Shown: piece by piece, positions 2,582 through 21,317 of the stretch | How positions within the stretch are numbered: position 1 is the first letter of the stretch | Layout: each line of letters begins with the position of its first letter | Source: Naegleria lovaniensis | Lineage: Eukaryota; Heterolobosea; Eutetramitea; Acrasida; Naegleriidae | NCBI RefSeq assembly: GCF_003324165.1 | Contig: NW_025407905.1 | Coordinates: forward strand, 1-22,139 | Direction of reading: 5' to 3' | DNA: 22,139 nucleotides | Translations under genes and position numbers: made by a program | The notes under the pieces: generated by a model | Told to the model about the DNA's origin: nothing | The model's input: the letters and a program-made list of their open reading frames with translations, nothing else | The model's database searches: none

Positions 2582-2649
2582 AAGTCCCATCAACTCCGAT
2601 TGATTGCTCCTATTTGAACACAATCAATGGATACAAACAACGGCGTTTT

Positions 2650-2689
2650 CTCCTGGCGTTCCCAACTACCACTTCGCTGGTGTAACATT
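2650..2689 (+). repeat. Left terminal inverted repeat
   Basis: The core CTCCTGGCGTTCCCAACT (2650-2667) is identical to the reverse complement of 6522-6539. Further in, GGTGTAACATT (2679-2689) matches AGTGTTACAAT of the other end at 8 of 11 positions after a two-base gap. Confidence 0.88.
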
Positions 2690-2753
2690 CCTTTATTTGG
2701 TTCATTCGGGCTACGTCTCAGTGTTTTTGTTACATTAGCTTTTTGTTGTTCGC

Positions 2754-2801
2754 CCAGCAAAAGCTGCTTTGTCTTTGTTGAAGGACAAAGGCTTCTGCTG
2801 G
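2754..2801. repeat. Subterminal hairpin-forming inverted repeat inside the transposon
   Basis: The arms 2754-2773 and 2784-2801 are complementary except for one mismatch and a two-base bulge (CCAGCA.AAGC..CTTTGTC against its complement), around a 10-nt loop. It lies about 100 bp inside the left end, between the terminal repeat and the transposase stop codon. It may be a subterminal transposase-binding site or a transcript 3'-end structure. No clear counterpart was found at the right end. Confidence 0.6.
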
Positions 2802-2952
2802 AGCTATAATGAATAATAAAACGACTTGAGGTATGTTGTTGTGATTAGAAAAATACGGTGTAATTGTGGTCGGAAGAAATAAATAGGTGAACAATTTTAA
2901 ACGTGTTCCAATTTTTGGACGAACTTTTTTTGTGATGAAAAATGCTTGACAT

Positions 2953-2958
2953 TTTATT
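2953..2958 (-). promoter_or_regulatory. Polyadenylation signal overlapping the transposase stop codon
   Basis: AATAAA on the minus strand overlaps the TAA stop of the transposase ORF (stop at 2954-2956). An element that ends its transcript directly after the stop would be compact. This is a motif match only. Confidence 0.4.
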
Positions 2959-5900
2959 GCATGTCTTGAGACGAAGCCACCACCTGGCTCAGCTGGGAAT
3001 ACGAAACGAGGTTTTTTGTTTTCTTTGCAAATACGTAAAAAGGAGGTGACAACAACTGATAATTTCCAACAATCACAGCAATTTGTTTTTGATAAAGCTT
3101 GGTGCTGGTTGTTGATGAAAATTGTCCAATTAATTTAAATTTGAATGGATCCGTCTGATTTGGTGCCACAAATATTTTAAATGAGTTAATTGGTTCAGAA
3201 TGTCGAGATGCATTTTCATTGTTCTCATTGAAATTGCGAACCTCTACGGTTGCATTGCTCAAAGAAATATGATTAGTCTTAATTTCAAATTCTACGGGCT
3301 TTTTAAGCAAAAATGCCGCAATATGATTTTGAGCATGAATTAATGAGTCGTGTGTTTGAATAATGGTAAAACTGATGTCGTCGGTTAATGTAAGTCGTTC
3401 TGTTAAGTTTGGCAAAACTTCACTTGTTTCAATATGGAAAACAGGAAGTGAAATGTTGTAGTAATTGGAAATGCTTGTCTCCATGAAATCGGTGGCAAAT
3501 CCGGCCCTATAGTCATGTCTTGACTGATGGTATGATTGACGGATGGAGTTGACACGATGTTGTAAACATCGCAATTGTAAGTCTTTCGCACAAATTAAAT
3601 CTTGATCTGTAAAACTATAAGAAATGGATGTCACGCTTTCTCTAGCTTGCTTTCTTTCATTATTAAAGTCAACAAATTGTTTTTCAGTCATTCTCATCAA
3701 AATTTGTTGGTTAATTTGACTAGGGGCATCACAATATTTCCTCTTTCTATCGTTATTGTATGAAAGATATACACATTCTTTTTTCACTAATTTGATTTTC
3801 ATGTTTGAGTAACTTCTATGATAGTCCAATACTGTGGTTCTTTTTGAATAATCACGTGACTCTCCGAAAAATCCTTCAAGAGAACGTGTTCCCAATAAAG
3901 ACAAATCAAAAACTGCATCTTGTGGAATAATTCTGATCAATTTCTGAATTGTTTTGATGTTATGGATAATGATGTTTTTTGTGAGGGTTCCGGATAATGT
4001 AAAATTATTATTCTTATTGGAAATAATGACGTCTTGGAAAACGGTATCCCACTCATTCAAATAGTCCAAATTTTCCTTAAGAACTTGCAACACTTCGTGC
4101 AAATTGTGTGAAGATGTTCCATCATGATTTTTGTCATCGTAAACATGAAATAAATCATGTATCGCTTTTAAGTACTTATAGAATCCTAAATATCGATAGT
4201 TGGTTCTCTCGTTCAATAATCGTAATTTTTCAAGTAACTGTAAATTGCATACATCACGTAATACATCCTCAGATTGATCATCATATTTGATAAACGAGCT
4301 CCGTTTAACTATTTTACACCACTCTAAAGGTTGTTGTCTATATATTTCATCGAGTGTGTTCAATTCAAATCGTTGTAAAATAGAACAAGAAATTTTGGTG
4401 ACAGCTATGTCTTGATTGCTAAAATTTGCCACACACACTTTACCAATGTTAGTATGAAGGGTTTCACTCAACAACGTAACACTTAATTCGTTGTCATTGC
4501 TGCTATGATAGAAAGAAATGCCTCCAGAGTTAAAATTCCGTGGTTCTTTTTCTTTCCATTCAAATGAAATTGTGTCTTTGTCATTCACTATGAAGGAAAG
4601 TGGTATGTTGGTCGCTTGTGTTCTTTGAATAACAATTTTCATCAAATGGCAACCGTTTCCGTTGTCGTTGGAAGAAATACAAGCAGAGGAATGGCGTGCA
4701 ATTTGAAGGTTTGGAGCACCTACTTTAGTGGCAACCGGATATAATTTTGGTCTCCCATTAATTGCATTCCTCATGTTTTTGCAATGGTGACTGTAGCAAA
4801 AATGATGTAGTTCATTTGGGCTCGATGTGAAATATTTGTAATTAGCAGACCCTGCATCTGACACAGTACAGACGATGTTTCGAGTATATGTGTCACGAAA
4901 TTCAGAAATCGTGTCTCTAATGGTTTGTTCAGTTTCAGTAGTGCATACTTTGAAGTTTCCAGGAATTCGAACTTCACCGTTAATACTGCAATATAAAGTT
5001 TGAACAATTTTTTCAGCTAAAAAACCCTTGGGTGGAAAATTCGGACTCTGAGCTAGTGCAGTACAATCACTAATCTTCAATGGACCTTCATTGGCACCGT
5101 ATACAAGCCCAAGCTTGGTATTGATTCCTAAATGCGGTGTTACATCTACTGCATCAATTTGAACAAGACCAAAATTTTGATTTTCAATAACCTTCATTTT
5201 TTCTACTAGCTTATCAAAGTCATCTTTGTCTAGTTTAGTATTCCCTTCTCCATATGATGCGGTGTGAAAATGATGGTCGAGTGTGGATGAACAAGGTAGG
5301 ACTAAGTTACATCTTTCAGAAGAGGGTTCAAATTCTTGTCCTCGTTTCAACCCTCTCGCCAATGCTTCATACGCATTGTATCCCATGATAACCAATAAAT
5401 CTTGAGCAAAACAAAGAACAGATGGGCTCCATCTATGGCCTCTACTGTCTTTGCAAATTAATTGTGAAAAAGCATCACGAAGATATGTGAAAAAGAAAGT
5501 TCGAGGTACTAATTTGCGACTACCTAACACCTGAAAAAACAATTTTTTCAATTCTTGAATATCCTCATCAAATATATCACATTCCGAATAATAACTATCA
5601 TCATCGTTATTTTGTGATTTAAAATCAGCATGGTCTACAAAATTATGAGAGATGGTGTCGGACTTGGTATTTACAATTGATGAGTGTGTTGGAATAAATT
5701 TGTTGTTAATTAGTTGTTGCAGCATGTAATACGGTGCTGTTTGTTCTTTTGTTGAATATGACAACGTGATGTAGTCTTCAGCAAAACCATGATCCAGGAT
5801 TTTATGTAATTCAATAACGCCGACATTTTTTTCTGGTTCGAGTAATTTCATGATGGTTGAACTAGAATAACGTTGTGACGTTGTTGAGGTTTGAGGTGGG

Positions 5901-6394
5901 TCTTCGCAAGCTGTACTTGTTTTGGAGTGTTTACGTTTTTGACGAATTCGCATCAGCTCGTCATGACACTCTTTCAATTTCAAATAGCCTTGAAAATGTA
6001 GTTTGTTGATCCATTCTGATGTTAACTCTTGATTTTGTCTTTGATTTTGAAATTTTGGGTCAGAGTAAATGTTATAGATAGCACTATCCTCGTCCGGGTC
6101 AATGCAATCAGTAACATATTGTGCAATCTTTGTTGAATTGTCAACCTGGAATTTGCAACAGTATAGAACAAATGGGACTCGTTTGTTGTGTGTGATGAGG
6201 TATGAGAAATATAGTTCGAGATGGCGATGGATGGTATTAAAATCCTTGCGATGAAATCCACATTGATCAATAATATCTTCTATTAAATGTTCGACATTAA
6301 TATATTGATGGACTGCGAATAGCATTGTTTTGATGGCAACATGATATTCCGGTCTCAACAGACCGACAAAGGCGTTTCGTTCATGTTTTAACAT
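2954..6394 (-). CDS. DDE transposase, P-element/THAP9-like (tentative superfamily)
   Basis: The first ATG is at 6394 (1146 aa). The frame is open to 6496, but that upstream part begins with TTG after a TAG. Numbering from the ATG, residues about 330-356 (HRWSPSVLCFAQDLL, GYNAYEAL) followed by LPCSSTL resemble the segment before the catalytic core of P-type transposases. Candidate first Asp is D414 or D417 (QIDAVD). The second is D513 in VSDAGSANYKYF, followed by HHFCYSHHCKNMRN (compare H-L-x-K-N-x-R-N). The candidate Glu is E840 in GTRSLEGFFGESR. About 327 residues separate the second Asp and the Glu, a large insertion as in P elements, where that region binds GTP. I see no N-terminal THAP zinc finger. 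KRKH near 153-156 could be a nuclear signal. A beta-rich C-terminal tail contains SPPFYVFAKK. The ORF has no stop or visible frameshift. I recognise the layout, not a specific family member. Confidence 0.7.
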   Translation of the reverse strand: MLKHERNAFVGLLRPEYHVAIKTMLFAVHQYINVEHLIEDIIDQCGFHRKDFNTIHRHLELYFSYLITHNKRVPFVLYCCKFQVDNSTKIAQYVTDCIDPDEDSAIYNIYSDPKFQNQRQNQELTSEWINKLHFQGYLKLKECHDELMRIRQKRKHSKTSTACEDPPQTSTTSQRYSSSTIMKLLEPEKNVGVIELHKILDHGFAEDYITLSYSTKEQTAPYYMLQQLINNKFIPTHSSIVNTKSDTISHNFVDHADFKSQNNDDDSYYSECDIFDEDIQELKKLFFQVLGSRKLVPRTFFFTYLRDAFSQLICKDSRGHRWSPSVLCFAQDLLVIMGYNAYEALARGLKRGQEFEPSSERCNLVLPCSSTLDHHFHTASYGEGNTKLDKDDFDKLVEKMKVIENQNFGLVQIDAVDVTPHLGINTKLGLVYGANEGPLKISDCTALAQSPNFPPKGFLAEKIVQTLYCSINGEVRIPGNFKVCTTETEQTIRDTISEFRDTYTRNIVCTVSDAGSANYKYFTSSPNELHHFCYSHHCKNMRNAINGRPKLYPVATKVGAPNLQIARHSSACISSNDNGNGCHLMKIVIQRTQATNIPLSFIVNDKDTISFEWKEKEPRNFNSGGISFYHSSNDNELSVTLLSETLHTNIGKVCVANFSNQDIAVTKISCSILQRFELNTLDEIYRQQPLEWCKIVKRSSFIKYDDQSEDVLRDVCNLQLLEKLRLLNERTNYRYLGFYKYLKAIHDLFHVYDDKNHDGTSSHNLHEVLQVLKENLDYLNEWDTVFQDVIISNKNNNFTLSGTLTKNIIIHNIKTIQKLIRIIPQDAVFDLSLLGTRSLEGFFGESRDYSKRTTVLDYHRSYSNMKIKLVKKECVYLSYNNDRKRKYCDAPSQINQQILMRMTEKQFVDFNNERKQARESVTSISYSFTDQDLICAKDLQLRCLQHRVNSIRQSYHQSRHDYRAGFATDFMETSISNYYNISLPVFHIETSEVLPNLTERLTLTDDISFTIIQTHDSLIHAQNHIAAFLLKKPVEFEIKTNHISLSNATVEVRNFNENNENASRHSEPINSFKIFVAPNQTDPFKFKLIGQFSSTTSTKLYQKQIAVIVGNYQLLSPPFYVFAKKTKNLVSYSQLSQVVASSQDMQ

Positions 6395-6499
6395 TTTTAT
6401 TGAAAAAACCTCCAGCAAACACCAGAACAAAACTTCGACAGCCTGCTCGACCTTTTTTAAAATGGTTAGGATTCTAAAAAATAAAGTGCTTTCCAAATG

Positions 6500-6539
6500 C
6501 TATTGTAACACTATTTCTGGGAGTTGGGAACGCCAGGAG
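6500..6539 (-). repeat. Right terminal inverted repeat
   Basis: The core at 6522-6539 is the exact reverse complement of 2650-2667, with a degenerate inner extension to about 6500. The open upstream part of the transposase frame begins at 6496, just inside this repeat, so the transposase promoter must lie within about 150 bp of the end or outside the element. Confidence 0.88.
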
Positions 6540-6580
6540 GAGGGCTTTGAAGAACCAATGTGTTGAGAAGTCAATAAGAT

Positions 6581-11222: not shown

Positions 11223-14200
11223 CTAAAAGCTAAGACGATACAGAACATAGCAGACGTGATTAACAAAGGAACCAATAAAATCTCGTTCTGTTTGATTTGG
11301 AATAATGATCAGAGATTGAGCACCTTCCGATTTTTGATCAACTCTTACGGCTGGTGATGGCATGTTGGTATTTGGTGATCTCAACATGGAAGCAGAATGA
11401 GTCTGATCTTGAAGAGGTTCAGGCTCGTTTGCAAGCTTCTTCTTACAGAAATAGATGATTACAGAGTTTTCCTTAATCTTGTAATGGATGTGCAACATGA
11501 AATCAGTGCTTCTATTACTTGGAGTAATGAGTAAATGTTGAGCAGTGCCATCCTTCTTGAATATACTTCCTGCCCTCTCTCCTCCATAAATATTCCATAG
11601 CTCAGAAATCACGTCATTCCATGGCACGTAGGTAGCCTCAAATATTGAGAGAGTAAAGTCATACTCAGTTATTTGAGTCTTAGTCCATAAAGCATCAAGT
11701 TCGTTGAATAAGTTTTCGCTCATCCTGAATTTAAGAGCCATATCCCATAAAATGTCCAGCTTGAATGAGTTTTTGACACTTTGTAGCAAATTTGCCAACT
11801 TTCTTTCGTATTGTTGAGCCATTTGTGTAATCACCTTGTACATGTTGTCTTTAGAGCCTTCAATCTCGCTATCATAAGGATGTCTATTCGTTGCATCTAC
11901 AAACACTATATACATGGTGAGATTCATTGTGCTATCTTCTTCTTGAGGACTTGGAGACCTTGATGAATTAGTTGATGAAGCTCCATGATATGAAAATGTG
12001 GTATGTGAATCAGAATGTACAACTGACTTTGTTACCAATACACAGTACGAGTAATCTGCTTCCTCATGAGAAATGTAAGTGTCAAGAATGAAACACTCTT
12101 TGCTCTTTTGACTGAATTTAACCTTATACTTGTCAGAGTGTTTGCAAATATATTCAAAGAAAAATTGAAATGGATCATTCAACATTTCTCGTCTCTCAGT
12201 ACTGTAGGATCGACCTCGTTCAAGAGATTTCATGCTACTTTTAGGTGTTGTTGCCTTTTCTCGCATAATTTCTGCAATGTCTTTAACATTCTCAAAAGTG
12301 ATGGTGTGTGAATGTAAGATATTTCTTGTATGGGGTGGAGGGTTTGGATAAAATTGATTAAAGTCTTTCAATAAACTCATAAAGCTCAAAGTTGATGGAA
12401 ATCCAGAGTAATCGGTTGTAAGATAATTCAAAAAATTTCTCAAGTGGAAATCATATGAAAATGAATTCATGTGCAGTGAGTGTTTGAATTGGCTCACTTT
12501 TTTCAAGAACTCTCCTCTGGTAGAGGCTCGAGGATTCAGCAAGGAAGGTCTTTGAGACGTAATGTCAGAAATATAAACATTTAGGTACACATAAATACTG
12601 TCAAGACCTAATTCTAAGAATAGTACTCCATCGTCCATTTGTTTATGGAAGTAAATAGTGGTGGGTTGGAGCTTAATAATTTGATTTCCCACAACTTGGA
12701 CAAGTGGAGTGGGCTGTGGTCTTGATTTGTTGTCCGTTGAGGTAGTAATTGGATTCATGTCACTTGGAGTTGAGGCTAATAATGGTGATGAATCATGCTG
12801 ATCTGAAGGATGCAAGAAAACGTCAGAAATATCCAATGACTTGATATACTCTACATATTCGCTCAAGAATGATTCAAATACCTTTCTGTGATAACCAATT
12901 TCACGAAGGTTGTTATTTTGTTGCTCCTCTACGCCTGTGACTCCCTCACTGTCAAGATGTTGAATAATAGCAGCAGAGGACGAAGAAATAAAAGATGATG
13001 GGCTAAATAATATTCTTCTCAATGGGTTAAACAGGAGAGGTACCCTGCAAAAGTGGATTAGTCTTGAAGTGTTCTTGATGAGTTGGAAGTCCTTAGATTT
13101 TAAGTTTGTAGATTGAGATTTGTTCCAAAATCCGTAAATCTTTGACACTTGCTGTTGTTCAACCTTCTTTTTGTAGTTCTGGTGCACGATGTGTTTAAAG
13201 TGAAGCCCATGAATAAGAAGCGGATCACGTGGTTTGTTGTCATTCATGGTTTTCTTGGCCAATTGTTTGCAAGGTGTCTTGTCTAAATCAAATATTCCTT
13301 TCAACAGGGATCCAAATTGATTTTTGCTTGAAGGAGGCTTCTTCTCTTTTCTTACTTTTTGAATATCTGTTTTTACAGAAATATCATTTACAGATGAAGT
13401 AACAAGTGTAGAATTCATGCCTGGATTTTTGAAACGATTGTACATTTGTCCTCCCCTCACGTCCAGAATTGGTTGTTTTGGTGGAATCATACTTCCTGTT
13501 GGATTGTTAGTTGTGGTGGATGTTGTTACGGCAGGAGTTGTTCTTCTCATAGTATTGGAAGACTTTGGATCGCTTGGAGCGCTCTGCTTATTGTAAATGA
13601 GCAAATCAATGTTGTTAAATGCAAATTGAACCTCTTTTTGTGGTTTCCCAAGAGGGATCAATAGGTTGGTTGGAACTGTTGCCAAGTTGGTTGAATGAGA
13701 ATGGTAAAAGAGTCCCAACTTTTGATGGAGTATGCTGTTAAGTAAGTGAGCTCGACATCTCAACCATGACACTGTTTGGTGCAAATGATACTTGAACTTT
13801 TCAAATTGTTGTGGCTTCCAATTGTATGCTATTACTTGCAATTCTGAACTCGTTAGTATAATGACAATACAGCATTTTCTGGTATATTTTATCGAATTTC
13901 TGTAACTGAACCCATCCAACGAGATGATATCGCCTATCTTGATATTTTCTCCAATATTAATAACCTTATCAGTTAAAACAGAAAAATTACCAGCCATCAT
14001 AACAAAACAAATGTTGCTTGAATCTACCAGATGATATTGTTCAATAAAATCATTGCTTCTTGAATATTTGACAAATGTTTGCCTGGTATCTTTGCTTACA
14101 AACGTAATTGGTCGCAATTTAAAACTGTATGCGGACAATAAATTGTACAAATCTCCAATAAATCTATTCATTTCCCACAACGGTAAAAATAGAGAAGCTC

Positions 14201-17200
14201 TATGCTCCATCAATGTTGGCGAGCTTATTCTACATGCCTTAATGGCCTGAGTTTGTAGTCTTACGAGAAAATAACGATTGAGTCCTTCTAGGTTTACAGG
14301 AGACGTGAAAAGTCCACACTCAATAATATAATCTATCAATGTTTGGTTAAGAGTGAGACAAAGCTTTTCAATAAGAGAAGCTAAATCTACGTCACCTTTT
14401 TTCCAAACTTCCAGAAGTATTTTACCGTTTTCACTTCGATGAGCTGCAGAAGCGCTCTTTTCAATGACATTTTCTTCATCGTCCTCATCATCTGAGTTAC
14501 TTCCCTCTTTACGAAGGATGGGAGCTCCAAAATCTGTATAAGCAATGTTTGATGGCTCCTCTTGAAGCAGACCCAATTGTGATACTCCGGTCAAATCGCA
14601 AGTGTATGGCTCTTTCATTGACGGGAAAACTGTTACCATCTCACCATCTTGATTTAGTAGCGTCATTTGTACACAAGCAATACCTCTGCAATTGACCTGA
14701 GACGTCATTGCTCTTGAGTATGTATTCTGAGTAACTGAGTTATATAAGAATGAAAAATCAGCTGCTTTGAAAACCATATCGTCTTCTTCATCTTCCGTGA
14801 AAGACATATACGAGATGGTACTTGGACTCTCTGCAGATTCATCGCTACTAGTCAGATATAATTGATTCATGTAAGTCAACATGTTATTTCTGGCAAATAA
14901 CATGAAAAGTAACTTGTTGTTAATAAATTTTGGAAGAGTAATGACAACGCTCTTGTGAGGTTGAGAGAGCAACGGTCTAATAAACTGCAAATCTTCAACT
15001 GTGATTTTAAATTGCCTATTTCTCAACAATAAATTGGAGATGATATTCATGGTGAGTGATGATAGCTTGGCTTCAATAAGATTCCTAAGTTGGGTTGTAA
15101 TCTCAATACTTGGTGGATATACACCGTAAACCTCCAAAATAACAGAAGAAATGTCATTCTTGATATCAAATTCAGCATAAAGGTATTGTCCCATACTGGA
15201 GAGAGAAATTGAATATTCTTTAAGCTTGGTTTTGTGTTCTTGCTCATCCCTAGCCGAGGAGACAAGAGTTGGAGACTCTTCACTCTTTGGAGTTTGAACG
15301 GTAGTAGAGTTTTGTTTGTTACCATCCGTGAGTTGAAGATAAAAAACACGACCACTCCTCTCCTTGTACACAAACATTTCACTTCTATTGGCAACAACGA
15401 AGGGATTGAAAACAACTTGATTCAAGTGGTTAATCGCCATTGCTGTTGATAGACGACTATGAAGAGGAAAAGAAATTTCAAAGGTCTTTTTGCATGCAAA
15501 ATCTCCCTCATTAAACTTGTCACTGCTTGGTTTCTCGTTGTCCTTACGTAAAAACTTCTTGTCAAGCACACTAACTTCAGAGACTGCCTTCTTATCTTTA
15601 TCCCTTCTAACAGGAAGAAGTAATGAACTGCAAATTCTTGTATCATGCAAATTTGAGAGAAGAAGTAGAGTATTGACTCTCTTACAAACTACTCCAACTG
15701 CTTTGAAAACAATATTTACCACGTCGTTAGCCTGTGAAATTGAAAGTGAGTTTGGAGAGTAAAACAGCATGGACATTGATTTCTTGCTCTCTGCTTTCAG
15801 AATGATCCAAAATGGTACTTCAATACAACTTCTTTCCATTTCTGTGTCATTATCGAACATTGTCATGTCCAAGTCATCGAGCTCCTTGCTGAAAATTTTA
15901 AATTTGTTTGGCGTGTCACCAGGGGGTAATTCATGCTCACATTTTCTGTCATACTCTTCAAATATGGCATGTTTTTGGCAGCAATTTCTTTTTCTAAAGT
16001 AAACAACGTAGTGGTTATCGATACTTTTGAAGACCACATTTTTGCATTTCAATAGCTCCTGGTGAAAGAGTTTAGCACCTTCAACTGGATCAATAAAAAA
16101 TAAAGGAATAGTATGCTTTTGATAGCATGATGCGGGAAGCTTTTCAACATTATCAAAAACTTTCTTAATAGAATATGATGTAATAGGGTGCGTCCTAAGT
16201 AATGCATTCAGTATTTCTTTGGAGACCAATGCTTGTAATCGTTTTTTAGTTCTGGAAACTATTCTTCGGATATGTCTCGGGAGGTAGCCCTTGTCTAAGT
16301 AAGGAGCTGCTTCATCGGTTGTGTCTCCATCAAAGACATCGTCTTCGAGTTCAAATTTACTTCTGGCATAAGCAGATTGGGTTTCAGACACATGACTTCT
16401 AAACATTCCCAGAACGTCCTTCTTTGAGGGCTCAAATCCATTAAACGAAGCGCAATATTTGTCAGGTGGTAACGTAATGCAATAAAATCTCAACGTTGTT
16501 TTTACGGTATTCAAAGAATTAATCCAGTCAAAATCCATTTCTGTTTTAAGTTTGCTTGGGGTAAAGTCTGATTCATCATCCTCTTCGCTATCCTCTTCTT
16601 TCTCACCAAATGAAGAAGAAAGCTTTGAAAAATCTCCATTACTGGATCTAATACTCTTTGAAATTCTCTCTATTGGGATATTTTTGATCGGAAGTTTAAG
16701 ATCATTTGCGTATTCATCTAAATCATCTAAATCTTCCCATTCTTCTTTTCCTCTTTTAATTGGAGTTAACACACACTCCATTCTCATGAATACAGGAATA
16801 GTGGAATTTTCCAGCTCTGTTAAATTAAAGGCATCACTAACTGAGGAGCCAGAACTTTCAGTGAGAGAGTCTGATTGGTGATCAGATGTTTGTACATCTC
16901 TCATTCCCGCAGAAAGGCTCGAAAGGGAATGTGTGGTCTCATCTTCACCACTGTGGAAACTATGAATCTCATCATCTGATACATCTTCATCGTAGTTTTC
17001 TTCGTTATCAATTTCTTCGAGATGGTCAAAGCTTTTCACGCTATTTTTCTTCTTTATGGGCTTTGGAACAGTTTTAGTAGATTTGGGAATGGAGCTTTCT
17101 CGTAGATAAAAATGGAATTTGGTTCCTTTGATTTCTTCAAAGTACTTTTCAATTATCGTTTTGAATGAATTAACCATGTTCTCGCATGGAGTCGTGTCAT

Positions 17201-20200
17201 TTTCAGATTTGTCAAAGAAATAGTTTCTAGATAATAATATGGCCTCAAAGAATTCGGTGAGATCAATTTCTTCTCTATATTCGTAGCAGGATTCAACAGC
17301 AGAGACAATGCTTTCTCGGTCTATCATTAATTTTTGGTTCAGATACTTGTAAACTCCATATGTAAAGCTGTATGCATGTAGGTTTGTAACGAAATCGCAA
17401 TATGTTGCTGATGAAGCGAGGGCATGTTCCTCATCATGCGCTAGTGCATGGTTACGTAGAATAGAAGGAGAATGTTTAGAGCAAACTACTCGTTCCATAT
17501 TTTCGTTTCGTTTCAATTTATCCACAAATAACAGCTGATCCTCTGTGCAAACACATACAATGATGGTAAAGTCTTTTTCTTCTCCTGTAACATGAGAAGG
17601 AACAATGGTTAAAAGAAAATCCTTTTGCTTGTCTGAGCCAATGTTTTCAAAAACTCGTGCAAAGCACCGAGCTTTCATATCTAAATTAAGAGGTATCCTA
17701 TCTAAACTTATTTCTACGTCATTAATGTTGCATAGAATTTTCAAAAGTCTGTCATATAAAGCTATATTGCTTTTCTTTGCTGTTTCAACATCAGTGTCGG
17801 TATGAGTAATAAATTTAAATACGGAAAATTTCAAATTTTGGTGTTCGGAGCGTTCAAAAACGCCTTTCAAGTTAAAAGGTGTAATGCTGCCAGGTTTATC
17901 AGGCTGAAAAACAGTGATCGAATTATTACCTTTACCAGATTTACAAGCAGTCACTATGTTTTCAAACGTAGAAAACAGTGAGATAACTTGCAAATCCAGA
18001 TTATGAAACCAATTATCACATAAATCTGTGCAAAATTGATTTGAATCCACATGAACGCCATTGGAGTATGTAACGTAGCCTGATTGTGGTTCAACCCACA
18101 CTTCTGTCACTAGTTTTTTCTCTTTCTTCAAAATGTGGATACAATAAAACAGAATAAGCTTAGATAAAAAGTCGCTATTCGAGAAATAATTCGTTTTCGT
18201 TATTTCTAACTCCTTGAAAAATACTACAGATTGCCGAGTGATCACTAGAGAAAACCCCTCGTTCACCCTTTGTGCGAGCAAACATGATAGAATTGCTGCA
18301 ATATTAAGCCTTCCTCCTATGGGCCATATCCAATTTCTGTGCTTTAGATATGAAGTAAAATGTGGTGAATGGCTGAATAAGGATTGTTGATATTGAGATT
18401 CGTCGTCTTTACAAATAGGAAGTCTGGCTACAATTTCTGAGAACGCAGAGTTCTCTATGAAATGTGCGTGAATATTTCTTTGATAAAAGAGTTTTAGAGC
18501 TTGTTCTTTAAAATGTCTTAGTACTCTAAATATTGTGAAAGAGGAAACGTTGAAAAATTGAAATTTAAGTTCTACGACGGATGTATAAGATTTTGCAATT
18601 TTCAATAAACAAAAACCACAAGAAACTGAGGTATCTTTTTCTTCCATTGTCAATAGTGTGGTATCATGAACGGTGTCGTACATGTAGCACGTGTGATCTT
18701 GTTCGGAAATAAATAGAATAAAAATATCATCTGAAATCTTGGTAGAGCACCAACCATTCTCACAAAATGATTTGAAGAGAGTGAGGTTGTTTTGTACAGT
18801 AGGAGAAGCATCACTTGTTCCTGTTTGGATCTGAGAGAGTATTTTTTGTATGGTTACATCTGACTTTTGAATATTCTCATCAGAGTTAAAACAAAGTGCT
18901 AGCTTTTGCGTCTCAAAGAAGCATTCTCGCTCGTGATCAAAATTAATATTGGGAATGTCCATTTTTCTTATTGAAGATCGATTGAGCCCAGAACAATTCT
19001 CTGACAGGTTAAAATACTGCTCAACGAGAACGTCTTCAATGTTGATAGACTGGATATATTCTTGCAAGTGTTTTAGAAATGGTTCTTTCGTTCGTTTTTT
19101 AAGGAAGGCTTTAAACTTTTCTAAATTGTTTTTGTGCATGAACACAGATATAGTAACTGAAATTTTAGCCTTATTGGCTTTAGAAATCCCAAACCCTGAA
19201 AAACTGTTCGATGAAAGTACATCAAGATCTTGGTCCTCCATACCAGGTCCAAATCGTTCAACATGTACCTTGTAAATTATTTCTAGGTTCCTTCGATAAA
19301 GTAGACTCATTTTGACGTACTTTAAATCCAACTTCTCATCTTCAGCTTTGAACTTGGATAATTTGTCTGTTGGATTAGTATATTTGATGTCAGTGATTCT
19401 AAACCCTTGGATAGCTCGCTTTTTCAAAATTGGGTCTACGCTTGACATGGTCAGATTATAGGTTAATACGTCATACTCAAAGAAATTCTTTCGAATATCT
19501 TTCTTGATTGAATCCGAAGGTATGCTAGGAAAAATACTCCCCTCGCTAGCTGATAAAATCAAGCTTTCGTTGTCTGCAATCAAGATTGACGGAGATTTCA
19601 GCAATAGCCCATATTGAAGTGCTTTTGTCTTTTTTTTTTCGTTCATTTCGTTTTCTGAGTTTGACATGTAATCAAAATCTATGTAAACTCCATCTGTACA
19701 CGCTACCAATGATTCGATCAATTCGGAGTCAGGCACATAACTATAAAGATGCCCGTGCCCATTGCTTTGGGAAGTAATGTTTAAAATAGCAATACTGACG
19801 TCACGTTGATTGATATCAAACACAATGTCTGAGTTCAAGTCTGAAAGGTTGAACACGCTGTCACTAACTAACATTAATATTGGACATGCGTCAGGAGGAA
19901 GGAATTCCAATGCTAAAAGAGAATCCTTAACATATTGACTAAATTTTAAATTTGTTGCCAAATTATCGTTAGCCTTAGAATTTTTGAGAGATGTAGAGGC
20001 TAAATTCTCCAGGTCACACAATTGTTGATAAATTTTCCCAAGCATTTCATTCAAGTTATATGTGGTAATGTGACAATCTTGAAATAGAGAAAAAACAGGC
20101 CTTCCTGCCATACCGATTGCAACACAAGTAACGTGAATCTCTGGAATGATCTCACCATTATAATTAGGAATGGTTAATGGCTGAATTAAATGTGTAATTA

Positions 20201-21317
20201 CGTTAGATATGGCAACAAAAACCCTGTCAAACAGAACTTCTCCTGTTGTTGGGTCCATTGCAAGCATTGAAGGACTAACATCTATCGTTAACACGAGTCC
20301 GTACTTGGAATAAATAGTATGAACGAGAGTGCTCGGTAGAAGCTCCATGTTATGTTCCTCTGAGCCAAACAACTCTTCATTGGATGCTATTGAACTAATT
20401 TCAAGGCTATTGAAAGATTCATGAAGAGTATGATGAACCCCTTTAGGAGATGAAGAAAATATCCCACCTTGGTCACCATAAAGATGAGAGGGTAATATTA
20501 CAACTCCACCTTGATTATTATTACTACCGTTGTAATGAATTTGGTCAATACTAATGCTTCTAACAATTCCATTATTTGTTGCTTGATTTAATTGGTCTAT
20601 GCTCATACTTCTTGGAAGTGATAACTCTCCAGGAAATGGATGAGTAATGCCATGATGATATTGGCTGATAAGAGAATCTTCGGACATGGATGGTGAATTT
20701 TGGATGGAAGAGTTTATCCGTTCATTAGTGTATTCAGGTGTATTAATTGATGAAATGATACTAGAAGATGTAAATCCAACTACCGATTCATCAAAGGAAG
20801 GATGAGTGTGATGATGAAAATGTGATGATGGCATATCCAATAAGTGGATGTTATTTCGTAAAAACCTATTCTTTCGCATAGAAAGCTCCTTCTGATGCTT
20901 TACGGATGATGCAATAACTTGGATATTTCGTGTGCTTAGAGAGGGTGATGAAGGAGAAGGTACATGAGATGAATTCATACTGTGTTCACTCTTTTGAATG
21001 AGTTGCTTGACATTGGCGTGAAGATGATTTAATTGCCAAACAAGTCTCTCCGTTTTTCTAAACAACGAATAGTCATGAGAATGAAGAAAGACATGTCTAG
21101 CTGCTCCTGCGTACAGAGAATTATGTATGGGCCTACTACTTGAATTATTATTGCCAGTGTTGGATCTCATGTTGTAATGATATGAAGTATCTACAATGCC
21201 ATCGTTGTTCAATGTACCATCGTTGGAATTTAAATTAGAAGTAATATTATCATTTGTGGAAATAATGAATTCGTGTTGCTGATGCGTGGGTGAAGTCGGA
21301 GATTGTTGTGCCCACAT
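11223..21317 (-). CDS. SZT2: SZT2-like protein, KICSTOR subunit orthologue
   Basis: A single uninterrupted ORF of 3364 aa, nearly the length of human SZT2 (about 3400 aa). In animals SZT2 is the largest KICSTOR subunit and brings GATOR1 to the lysosome so that mTORC1 is switched off without amino acids. Matches seen: RLVWQLNHLH (91-100), like the start of animal SZT2; a von Willebrand-A-like region opening with TIDVSPS (344-350) and TTGEVLFDRVF, then YQQLCDLE and a long conserved stretch through LLALEFLPP. Between the first two blocks is a Ser/Asn/His-rich insert (about 107-330) that holds two copies of RSxSIDQ. Residues about 1425-1590 are acidic and Ser-rich, probably disordered. A basic segment, GYLPRHIRRIVSRTKKRLQ, follows near 1680. 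ATG 21317 starts just after the divergent promoter. No membrane segment or catalytic motif was found. Function in this organism is inferred from orthology. Confidence 0.88.
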   Translation of the reverse strand: MWAQQSPTSPTHQQHEFIISTNDNITSNLNSNDGTLNNDGIVDTSYHYNMRSNTGNNNSSSRPIHNSLYAGAARHVFLHSHDYSLFRKTERLVWQLNHLHANVKQLIQKSEHSMNSSHVPSPSSPSLSTRNIQVIASSVKHQKELSMRKNRFLRNNIHLLDMPSSHFHHHTHPSFDESVVGFTSSSIISSINTPEYTNERINSSIQNSPSMSEDSLISQYHHGITHPFPGELSLPRSMSIDQLNQATNNGIVRSISIDQIHYNGSNNNQGGVVILPSHLYGDQGGIFSSSPKGVHHTLHESFNSLEISSIASNEELFGSEEHNMELLPSTLVHTIYSKYGLVLTIDVSPSMLAMDPTTGEVLFDRVFVAISNVITHLIQPLTIPNYNGEIIPEIHVTCVAIGMAGRPVFSLFQDCHITTYNLNEMLGKIYQQLCDLENLASTSLKNSKANDNLATNLKFSQYVKDSLLALEFLPPDACPILMLVSDSVFNLSDLNSDIVFDINQRDVSIAILNITSQSNGHGHLYSYVPDSELIESLVACTDGVYIDFDYMSNSENEMNEKKKTKALQYGLLLKSPSILIADNESLILSASEGSIFPSIPSDSIKKDIRKNFFEYDVLTYNLTMSSVDPILKKRAIQGFRITDIKYTNPTDKLSKFKAEDEKLDLKYVKMSLLYRRNLEIIYKVHVERFGPGMEDQDLDVLSSNSFSGFGISKANKAKISVTISVFMHKNNLEKFKAFLKKRTKEPFLKHLQEYIQSINIEDVLVEQYFNLSENCSGLNRSSIRKMDIPNINFDHERECFFETQKLALCFNSDENIQKSDVTIQKILSQIQTGTSDASPTVQNNLTLFKSFCENGWCSTKISDDIFILFISEQDHTCYMYDTVHDTTLLTMEEKDTSVSCGFCLLKIAKSYTSVVELKFQFFNVSSFTIFRVLRHFKEQALKLFYQRNIHAHFIENSAFSEIVARLPICKDDESQYQQSLFSHSPHFTSYLKHRNWIWPIGGRLNIAAILSCLLAQRVNEGFSLVITRQSVVFFKELEITKTNYFSNSDFLSKLILFYCIHILKKEKKLVTEVWVEPQSGYVTYSNGVHVDSNQFCTDLCDNWFHNLDLQVISLFSTFENIVTACKSGKGNNSITVFQPDKPGSITPFNLKGVFERSEHQNLKFSVFKFITHTDTDVETAKKSNIALYDRLLKILCNINDVEISLDRIPLNLDMKARCFARVFENIGSDKQKDFLLTIVPSHVTGEEKDFTIIVCVCTEDQLLFVDKLKRNENMERVVCSKHSPSILRNHALAHDEEHALASSATYCDFVTNLHAYSFTYGVYKYLNQKLMIDRESIVSAVESCYEYREEIDLTEFFEAILLSRNYFFDKSENDTTPCENMVNSFKTIIEKYFEEIKGTKFHFYLRESSIPKSTKTVPKPIKKKNSVKSFDHLEEIDNEENYDEDVSDDEIHSFHSGEDETTHSLSSLSAGMRDVQTSDHQSDSLTESSGSSVSDAFNLTELENSTIPVFMRMECVLTPIKRGKEEWEDLDDLDEYANDLKLPIKNIPIERISKSIRSSNGDFSKLSSSFGEKEEDSEEDDESDFTPSKLKTEMDFDWINSLNTVKTTLRFYCITLPPDKYCASFNGFEPSKKDVLGMFRSHVSETQSAYARSKFELEDDVFDGDTTDEAAPYLDKGYLPRHIRRIVSRTKKRLQALVSKEILNALLRTHPITSYSIKKVFDNVEKLPASCYQKHTIPLFFIDPVEGAKLFHQELLKCKNVVFKSIDNHYVVYFRKRNCCQKHAIFEEYDRKCEHELPPGDTPNKFKIFSKELDDLDMTMFDNDTEMERSCIEVPFWIILKAESKKSMSMLFYSPNSLSISQANDVVNIVFKAVGVVCKRVNTLLLLSNLHDTRICSSLLLPVRRDKDKKAVSEVSVLDKKFLRKDNEKPSSDKFNEGDFACKKTFEISFPLHSRLSTAMAINHLNQVVFNPFVVANRSEMFVYKERSGRVFYLQLTDGNKQNSTTVQTPKSEESPTLVSSARDEQEHKTKLKEYSISLSSMGQYLYAEFDIKNDISSVILEVYGVYPPSIEITTQLRNLIEAKLSSLTMNIISNLLLRNRQFKITVEDLQFIRPLLSQPHKSVVITLPKFINNKLLFMLFARNNMLTYMNQLYLTSSDESAESPSTISYMSFTEDEEDDMVFKAADFSFLYNSVTQNTYSRAMTSQVNCRGIACVQMTLLNQDGEMVTVFPSMKEPYTCDLTGVSQLGLLQEEPSNIAYTDFGAPILRKEGSNSDDEDDEENVIEKSASAAHRSENGKILLEVWKKGDVDLASLIEKLCLTLNQTLIDYIIECGLFTSPVNLEGLNRYFLVRLQTQAIKACRISSPTLMEHRASLFLPLWEMNRFIGDLYNLLSAYSFKLRPITFVSKDTRQTFVKYSRSNDFIEQYHLVDSSNICFVMMAGNFSVLTDKVINIGENIKIGDIISLDGFSYRNSIKYTRKCCIVIILTSSELQVIAYNWKPQQFEKFKYHLHQTVSWLRCRAHLLNSILHQKLGLFYHSHSTNLATVPTNLLIPLGKPQKEVQFAFNNIDLLIYNKQSAPSDPKSSNTMRRTTPAVTTSTTTNNPTGSMIPPKQPILDVRGGQMYNRFKNPGMNSTLVTSSVNDISVKTDIQKVRKEKKPPSSKNQFGSLLKGIFDLDKTPCKQLAKKTMNDNKPRDPLLIHGLHFKHIVHQNYKKKVEQQQVSKIYGFWNKSQSTNLKSKDFQLIKNTSRLIHFCRVPLLFNPLRRILFSPSSFISSSSAAIIQHLDSEGVTGVEEQQNNNLREIGYHRKVFESFLSEYVEYIKSLDISDVFLHPSDQHDSSPLLASTPSDMNPITTSTDNKSRPQPTPLVQVVGNQIIKLQPTTIYFHKQMDDGVLFLELGLDSIYVYLNVYISDITSQRPSLLNPRASTRGEFLKKVSQFKHSLHMNSFSYDFHLRNFLNYLTTDYSGFPSTLSFMSLLKDFNQFYPNPPPHTRNILHSHTITFENVKDIAEIMREKATTPKSSMKSLERGRSYSTERREMLNDPFQFFFEYICKHSDKYKVKFSQKSKECFILDTYISHEEADYSYCVLVTKSVVHSDSHTTFSYHGASSTNSSRSPSPQEEDSTMNLTMYIVFVDATNRHPYDSEIEGSKDNMYKVITQMAQQYERKLANLLQSVKNSFKLDILWDMALKFRMSENLFNELDALWTKTQITEYDFTLSIFEATYVPWNDVISELWNIYGGERAGSIFKKDGTAQHLLITPSNRSTDFMLHIHYKIKENSVIIYFCKKKLANEPEPLQDQTHSASMLRSPNTNMPSPAVRVDQKSEGAQSLIIIPNQTERDFIGSFVNHVCYVLYRLSF
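20541..20612 (-). repeat. Duplicated RS[MI]SIDQ motif within SZT2
   Basis: Residues 236-242 (RSMSIDQ) and 253-259 (RSISIDQ) repeat with different codons, so the peptide rather than the DNA is conserved. They lie in the disordered insert before the VWA-like region and could be phosphorylation or docking sites, which is inference. Confidence 0.5.

Follow-up and report, generated by a model that had tools for sequence, protein, structure and literature searches.

A recently mobile DNA transposon family of Naegleria lovaniensis whose transposase is probably a distant relative of the P element transposase

The window analyzed here, a stretch of 22,139 nucleotides from Naegleria lovaniensis (RefSeq assembly GCF_003324165.1, contig NW_025407905.1, positions 1 to 22,139 of the forward strand), carries at 2653-6536 one 3,884-bp copy of a DNA transposon family that we call A, with edges that copy comparison finds to be common to the two-ended copies. 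The genome searched for further copies encodes an enolase that agrees with PDB 7ugh, a protein of N. fowleri, at 282 of 284 compared residues. The parts of this copy and its immediate flanks are as follows.

2653..6536, minus strand: transposon A, oriented in the direction of its gene
6522..6536, minus strand: 5' terminal inverted repeat, CTGGCGTTCCCAACT, from copy comparison and genome search
2653..2667, plus strand: 3' terminal inverted repeat, CTGGCGTTCCCAACT, from copy comparison and genome search
2954..6496, minus strand: transposase frame, 1,180 codons plus stop, single and unbroken, first ATG at 6394
5279..5299, minus strand: LPCSSTL, residues 400-406, counterpart of LPSRTTL in the P transposase
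5153..5155, minus strand: D448, putative first catalytic Asp
4856..4858, minus strand: D547, putative second catalytic Asp
4787..4798, minus strand: C(2)H motif, C567-Y-S-H570, followed by HCKNMRN (motif as described in section 3.4 of PMC8230255)
3875..3877, minus strand: E874 within LEGFFGESR, putative catalytic Glu
6502..6511, minus strand: subterminal GTGTTACAAT, counterpart of GTGTAACATT at the opposite end, spotted by eye
2680..2689, plus strand: subterminal GTGTAACATT, spotted by eye
2645..2652, plus strand: left flank GTTTTCTC, present once at an empty locus on contig C12, at about 559.7 kb
6537..6544, plus strand: right flank GAGGAGGG, present once at an empty locus on contig C2, at about 195.5 kb

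Among the 12 inverted pairs of the window, the arms at 2650-2671 and 6518-6539 (22 nt, 95%) rank first. A first-pass annotation of this DNA had described identical 18-bp inverted cores 3.9 kb apart; the repeats are real and recur genome-wide, but the repeat proper is an exact 15 bp, and the other 3 bp are chance flank. Since the bases outside CTGGCG differ between copies, the CTC/GAG of the window copy belongs to the flank and not to the element, and comparison with the empty loci derives this extra CTC...GAG from its two flanks. Across the genome searched (30,690,286 bases, or 30.69 Mb), the 15-mer has 38 exact and 2 one-mismatch matches, all at the ends of full, partial, or relict copies, compared with 3 matches for its reversed control pattern, and this recurrence rules out a chance origin of the inverted repeats. 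The subterminal pair is a possible transposase site.

A protein search finds the whole frame at 19 places in the genome with 100% identity over residues 1-1180, corresponding to 18 two-ended copies plus C38, a copy truncated at its 3' end. Both ends are exact in 17 copies, while C25 has one exact and one altered end; C38, C92, and C94 each have a single exact end, and C13 has one altered end. The eight copies fetched complete, including that of the window, are identical over 3,884 bp, and the remaining copies, fetched only in part, align at 100% except for C94 and C13. The piece of A on C94 lies at a contig end and contains stops and gaps, contig C92 begins inside the element, and C13 is a short relict of about 0.6 kb with parts 76-96% identical. 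Apart from full copies, C38, and the contig-end pieces, the genome search found no short non-autonomous copies besides this relict. The search that the first-pass annotation had proposed, using the terminal repeat and the open reading frame, thus shows A to be a multi-copy family with recurring ends, and with the whole frame at 19 places at 100% identity a single-copy host gene is rejected.

Target duplications accompany most of the 18 two-ended copies: nine have a plain 8-bp duplication, C25 has one of 8 bp on the assumption that its 3' end has lost 3 nt, the duplication of C9 is 7 bp long, and seven have none (C22, C48, C70, C85, C88, C93, and C83, the window copy). The copy on C23 has a precise empty allele on C73, where a single GGAATTAT stands and 200 of 200 bp match across the joined flanks; taken separately, the two flanks match C73 at 100% over 502 and 507 bp. 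Of the 14 flanks of the seven copies without duplications, six recur at an unoccupied site, the similarity ending exactly at the edge of the element. Joined flanks of the copy on C32 (163 kb) match across the join at C86 (98%, 127 bp) and C52 (93%, 140 bp), and the copy at C26:1-4750 lies within a tandem repeat, its joined flank sequence recurring nearby at 92% and 87%; these across-join matches, perhaps related repeats, are left out of the empty-site count. The remaining joined-flank queries listed no empty place, with 40 of 89 candidates scored. Three of ten insertion sites examined (C9, C21, and C23) lie inside a frame that is open across the whole 1.4 kb inspected. The truncated copy at C38:404055-407770 stops at element position 3580, after which about 40 bp of its own 5' flank recur, with the join at a shared ATGC; this copy looks like an aborted or repaired insertion.

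A is a real transposon with terminal inverted repeats that moved very recently, because the copies fetched complete are identical, 8-bp duplications flank ten of the 18 two-ended copies, and one copy has a precise empty allele. The first-pass suggestion of recent activity is therefore borne out, with 18 two-ended copies, identity among the eight fetched complete, duplications, and empty alleles; a caution here is that consensus polishing could have inflated the identity between copies. Given the intact frame, it is plausible that A is autonomous, and the family is perhaps still active.

The insertion sites also reveal a target preference. Relative to the 8 bp, positions -3 and -2 are enriched in G and positions +2 and +3 in C, with 18 of 32 and 17 of 32 half-sites. 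The 16 sites behind these counts come from the nine copies with plain 8-bp duplications, the six unoccupied counterparts, and one undisturbed end of family B (a second transposon family, described below), leaving out C9 (7 bp), C25 (edge loss), C38 (abnormal), and the unassigned flanks. Of 20,000 random sets of 16 sites, drawn from the window outside A and from eight empty-site loci, a fraction of 0.0001 had a best G/C column reaching 18, and none had a second column reaching 17. The preferred target is a 14-bp palindrome, GG-N10-CC, that is, GG-N-[8 bp]-N-CC, and a palindromic target would imply a symmetric transposase dimer at the target.

These features suggest how A might move. It would be a DNA transposon family of the cut-and-paste type and not one that copies itself. 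The single frame would yield a transposase that binds the 15-bp ends and possibly the subterminal GTGTWACAWT sites, a putative active site of RNase H type made up of D448, D547, and E874 would cut the element out, and the element would be joined to staggered cuts 8 bp apart, with a preference for GG-N10-CC.

The intact open reading frame of about 1150 codons and the D...D...E layout that had been read from the sequence both hold, the frame having 1,146 codons from its first ATG, with D448, D547, and E874 located in it. The signature D, D, [C/D](2)H, E is present in order in A, as D448, D547, C567(2)H570, and E874. The C(2)H motif is not unique to P. Two further families of N. lovaniensis, B and C, were found by searching the genome with models of the P-type RNase H domain. 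PF21787 leads to family B, with no match in 14 control genomes, and PF21789 leads to family C (expect value E=0.18), with a sub-cut-off match in 1 of the 14 control genomes. The B protein matches PF21787 at E=0.0028, below the curated cut-off, and the C protein matches PF21787 at 0.07 and PF21789 at 0.05, both below the curated cut-offs. B, represented by the 3,411-bp element with a 1,010-residue frame at L067:990-4400 (C77), has 12 more complete copies; the identity of all 13 rounds to 100%, one of them has a TAG, and five of six copies checked have 8-bp duplications. Its long inverted ends begin CAGGGAGGGTGAGCCA (also given as CAGGGAGGG), and its C-terminus resembles a DnaQ-like exonuclease (RNase_T, E=0.039). 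C is a 539-residue frame with traces of a P-type RNase H domain, occurring with equal score at L075 (C2:274531), C5:425386, and C11:307702.

In an aligned crop of the three proteins, where A is 21% identical to B and 23% identical to C, the 14 invariant columns include P, T, D, D, H, N, and N, and the alignment around the Glu keeps F, E, R, and T. By BLASTP, A and B are 22% identical over 273 residues (E=0.81). A profile of A+B+C, one of four profiles tried against the PDB, has a single match at E up to 10, the Drosophila P transposase 6p5a (E=0.061), and aligns with it the LPS block, the first and second Asp (D1 and D2), and the H..K..RN block in order. When ordered blocks from B, C, and P, with none from A, are placed on A, it scores 71.0, compared with 50.8 for the best of 3,000 shuffles and a maximum of 33.2 for 14 decoys (reversed A, the helicase, and overlapping segments of one long window frame, read forward and reversed), and the five anchors fall at P401, D448, D547, H570, and E874. 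Taken together, the ordered motifs suggest that the transposase of A is probably a P-like lineage, a highly diverged relative of the P element and THAP9 transposases.

Many results weigh against this kinship or weaken it. First, direct searches with A are negative. A alone has no relevant Pfam match (the best is Styelin at E 0.012, below its cut-off), so the family search suggested in the first-pass annotation, with the frame run against DDE models, did not place A; against PF21787 and PF21789 in particular, A gives no match at E up to 10, as far as the HMMER filters permit. A alone has no relevant match in the PDB and its residues 441-913 have no P match there, the profiles A+C, A+B, and B+C do not retrieve the P transposase, and C alone has no P match there. 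The top PDB rows of these profiles look like chance: A+B retrieves 12 prion chains, A+C a Rossmann-fold protein, and B+C a cytochrome. B alone matches a DNA polymerase III chain (E=0.36) through its exonuclease-like end. Pfam finds no THAP domain in residues 35-330 or 35-498 of A, and a viral collection holds no relatives of A or of the A+B+C profile. In single-sequence AlphaFold models, the mean predicted local distance difference test score is 32.5 for residues 395-960 and 30.4 for 940-1180, below 50 throughout.

Second, several scores are reached by shuffled sequences. The block limits and gap ranges of the ordered-block comparison were themselves set after A had been viewed beside B and C. 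In a set of 2,065 sequences (A, reversed A, 2,000 shuffles, and window frames and their reversals), the B+C+P profile ranks A 67th, B+C ranks it 579th, C+P ranks it 375th, and B+P does not list it. Plain pairwise alignments stay within the shuffles under two scorings: 22 and 47 of 300 for A with B, 31 and 61 for A with C, and 244 and 288 for B with C. The fly D1 block is not placed at D448, and 1,662 and 878 of 2,000 shuffles reach its score; the fly D2 block has its best place at A 541-557, covering D547, yet 85 and 495 of 2,000 shuffles equal it (again two scorings). Ordered blocks from P only are placed at P401, D448, and D547 but put the H at 617, and 66 of 3,000 shuffles reach A; with longer P blocks in order, 722 of 3,000 do. 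Ordered blocks from B only are reached by 3 of 3,000 shuffles, with D1 and E placed elsewhere, and those from C only by 125 of 3,000, with D2, H, and E placed elsewhere. Alignment of the single sequences A and B by hhalign gave no alignment, and MAFFT alignments of longer stretches were discarded because they misplaced the motifs. The suggestion that A belongs to a P-related or new lineage is upheld by the ordered motifs and 8-bp duplications and gains nothing from single-sequence or Pfam searches, where no match is significant. Kinship with P is likely, short of proof, and A is set apart from membership of P, because direct family models and the THAP domain were both tried and neither was found in A.

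Alternatively, A could be an active transposon of another superfamily, for example hAT, that makes 8-bp duplications and whose C/D(2)H-type transposase is too diverged for the models; we consider this unlikely. hAT elements make 8-bp duplications, and those of A fit them equally well; a direct search of A against Pfam retrieves no P model and no hAT model. The motif order and LPxxxTL block of A match the P transposase instead, a match that is weaker with P-only blocks. No Pfam match to the hAT dimerisation domain or to a BED finger was found in A, and none to the dimerisation domain in its C-terminal piece, although this is a weak point against hAT since the P models miss A too. hAT targets typically have T..A inside the duplication, whereas A prefers a 14-bp palindrome whose favored bases fall outside the 8 bp.

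Less likely again is that A, alone or with B and C, founds a superfamily of its own and has nothing in common with P beyond the general RNase H signature. The likeness to P is remote and seen at the profile level only, no THAP domain was found, and B and C are themselves distant from A, as their low identity in the aligned crop indicates. Against this reading stand the LPxxxTL block together with D, D, H, and E in order, and the weak matches of B and C to P-specific Pfam models. Distant kinship with P remains our preferred reading over both.

In the window, the left flank of A recurs unoccupied on C12 (559712-560111, 400/400 at 100%), as does its right flank on C2 (195525-195920, 99%); over 1.9 kb, the flanks match these loci at 99.9% and 99.5%, and both matches depart exactly at the element edge. 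The window contig therefore joins two loci through A, and its protease side and helicase side are not neighbors at C12 and C2. The left flank is also present on C92, beside an element end. Two pairs of copies look swapped, the 5' flank of C48 sharing 8 bp with the 3' flank of C93 and the 5' flank of C22 sharing 7 bp with the 3' flank of C88, and the flanks C48 3', C70 5', C85 3', and C88 5' are unassigned. In the first of these pairs, the terminal repeat of a family B element was the target of A: the 8-bp CAGCCTAT stands at both edges, which are now on two contigs (C48 5' and C93 3'). Contigs C83, C85, C88, C92, C93, and C94 are 18-22 kb long and have a whole or partial A within about 6.5 kb of one end; they are likely haplotype contigs broken at the repeat. 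Heterozygous insertions combined with misjoining at an identical repeat explain the duplication-less junctions most simply, and real exchange in the cell is a possible alternative source. Elsewhere in the window, an unbroken frame of 3,364 codons (11223-21317, minus strand) has no Pfam match at E up to 1.

An assembly artefact probably explains the junction of the window copy but not the family: that A is no transposon at all, its copies, identity, and junctions being artefacts, is scarcely credible. In its favor, seven of 18 two-ended copies lack duplications, those six short contigs carry A near an end, and C48 and C93 share the same 8 bp. Against it, the 8-bp duplications of ten copies at different sites, the precise empty allele on C73, and the unoccupied counterparts of orphan flanks show that many insertions are real.

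A broader picture, with perhaps a modest chance of being right as a whole, is that A, B, and C represent distinct branches of one ancient lineage of transposases beside P, of which at least A and B have been recently mobile, with A reading a 14-bp palindrome outside the duplicated 8 bp and its insertions still polymorphic between two haplotypes and, if junctions such as that of the window are real, rearranging chromosomes. In practical terms, a family that is intact and has both identical copies and an empty allele could be a starting point from which to build a native mutagenesis tool for an amoeba that is not a model organism. A might also serve as a distant outgroup for asking which P traits, including the use of guanosine triphosphate (GTP), the long staggered cut, and the THAP domain, are ancestral.

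Among known systems, the fly P element has a 14-bp palindrome as its target, and the palindromic target of A, surrounding the 8 bp, resembles it. The 8-bp duplications of A are those of the P element and THAP9 as well, whereas its ends begin CTGG, unlike theirs. Family B resembles A in its intact single frame, many near-identical copies, 8-bp duplications, and the same ordered motifs, and differs in its long inverted ends and exonuclease-like C-terminus. Within the genus, MuDRF of Naegleria gruberi is a DNA transposon of MuDR type with 9-bp duplications, unlike A in both respects (PMC3164196). The repeat table of N. lovaniensis includes CMC-EnSpm and PiggyBac among DNA elements and has no P class (PMC6125883, Table 3), and the Naegleria and Heterolobosea transposon literature examined, with Repbase and subscription journals outside the search, names no P-like element in Naegleria. 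Outside animals, the P elements P-1_MLP and P-2_MLP of rust fungi have 8-bp duplications (PMC3164196) like those of A, a likeness by description only. P transposition uses GTP as a cofactor and a 17-nt staggered cut at the donor, and P-type terminal repeats are short, 31 bp in the fly and 13 bp in the zebrafish (PMC7776569), as are the 15-bp repeats of A. Unlike animal P members, A has no THAP domain that we could find and no direct sequence match to them. What it shares with P is the architecture described in PMC8230255, namely D-D-E with a long stretch before the E and [C/D](2)H after D2, which in A takes the form C(2)H, on a somewhat larger scale: D1-D2 and D2-E are 99 and 327 residues apart in A versus 73 and 228 in the fly P transposase (D230, D303, and E531; PMC8230255).

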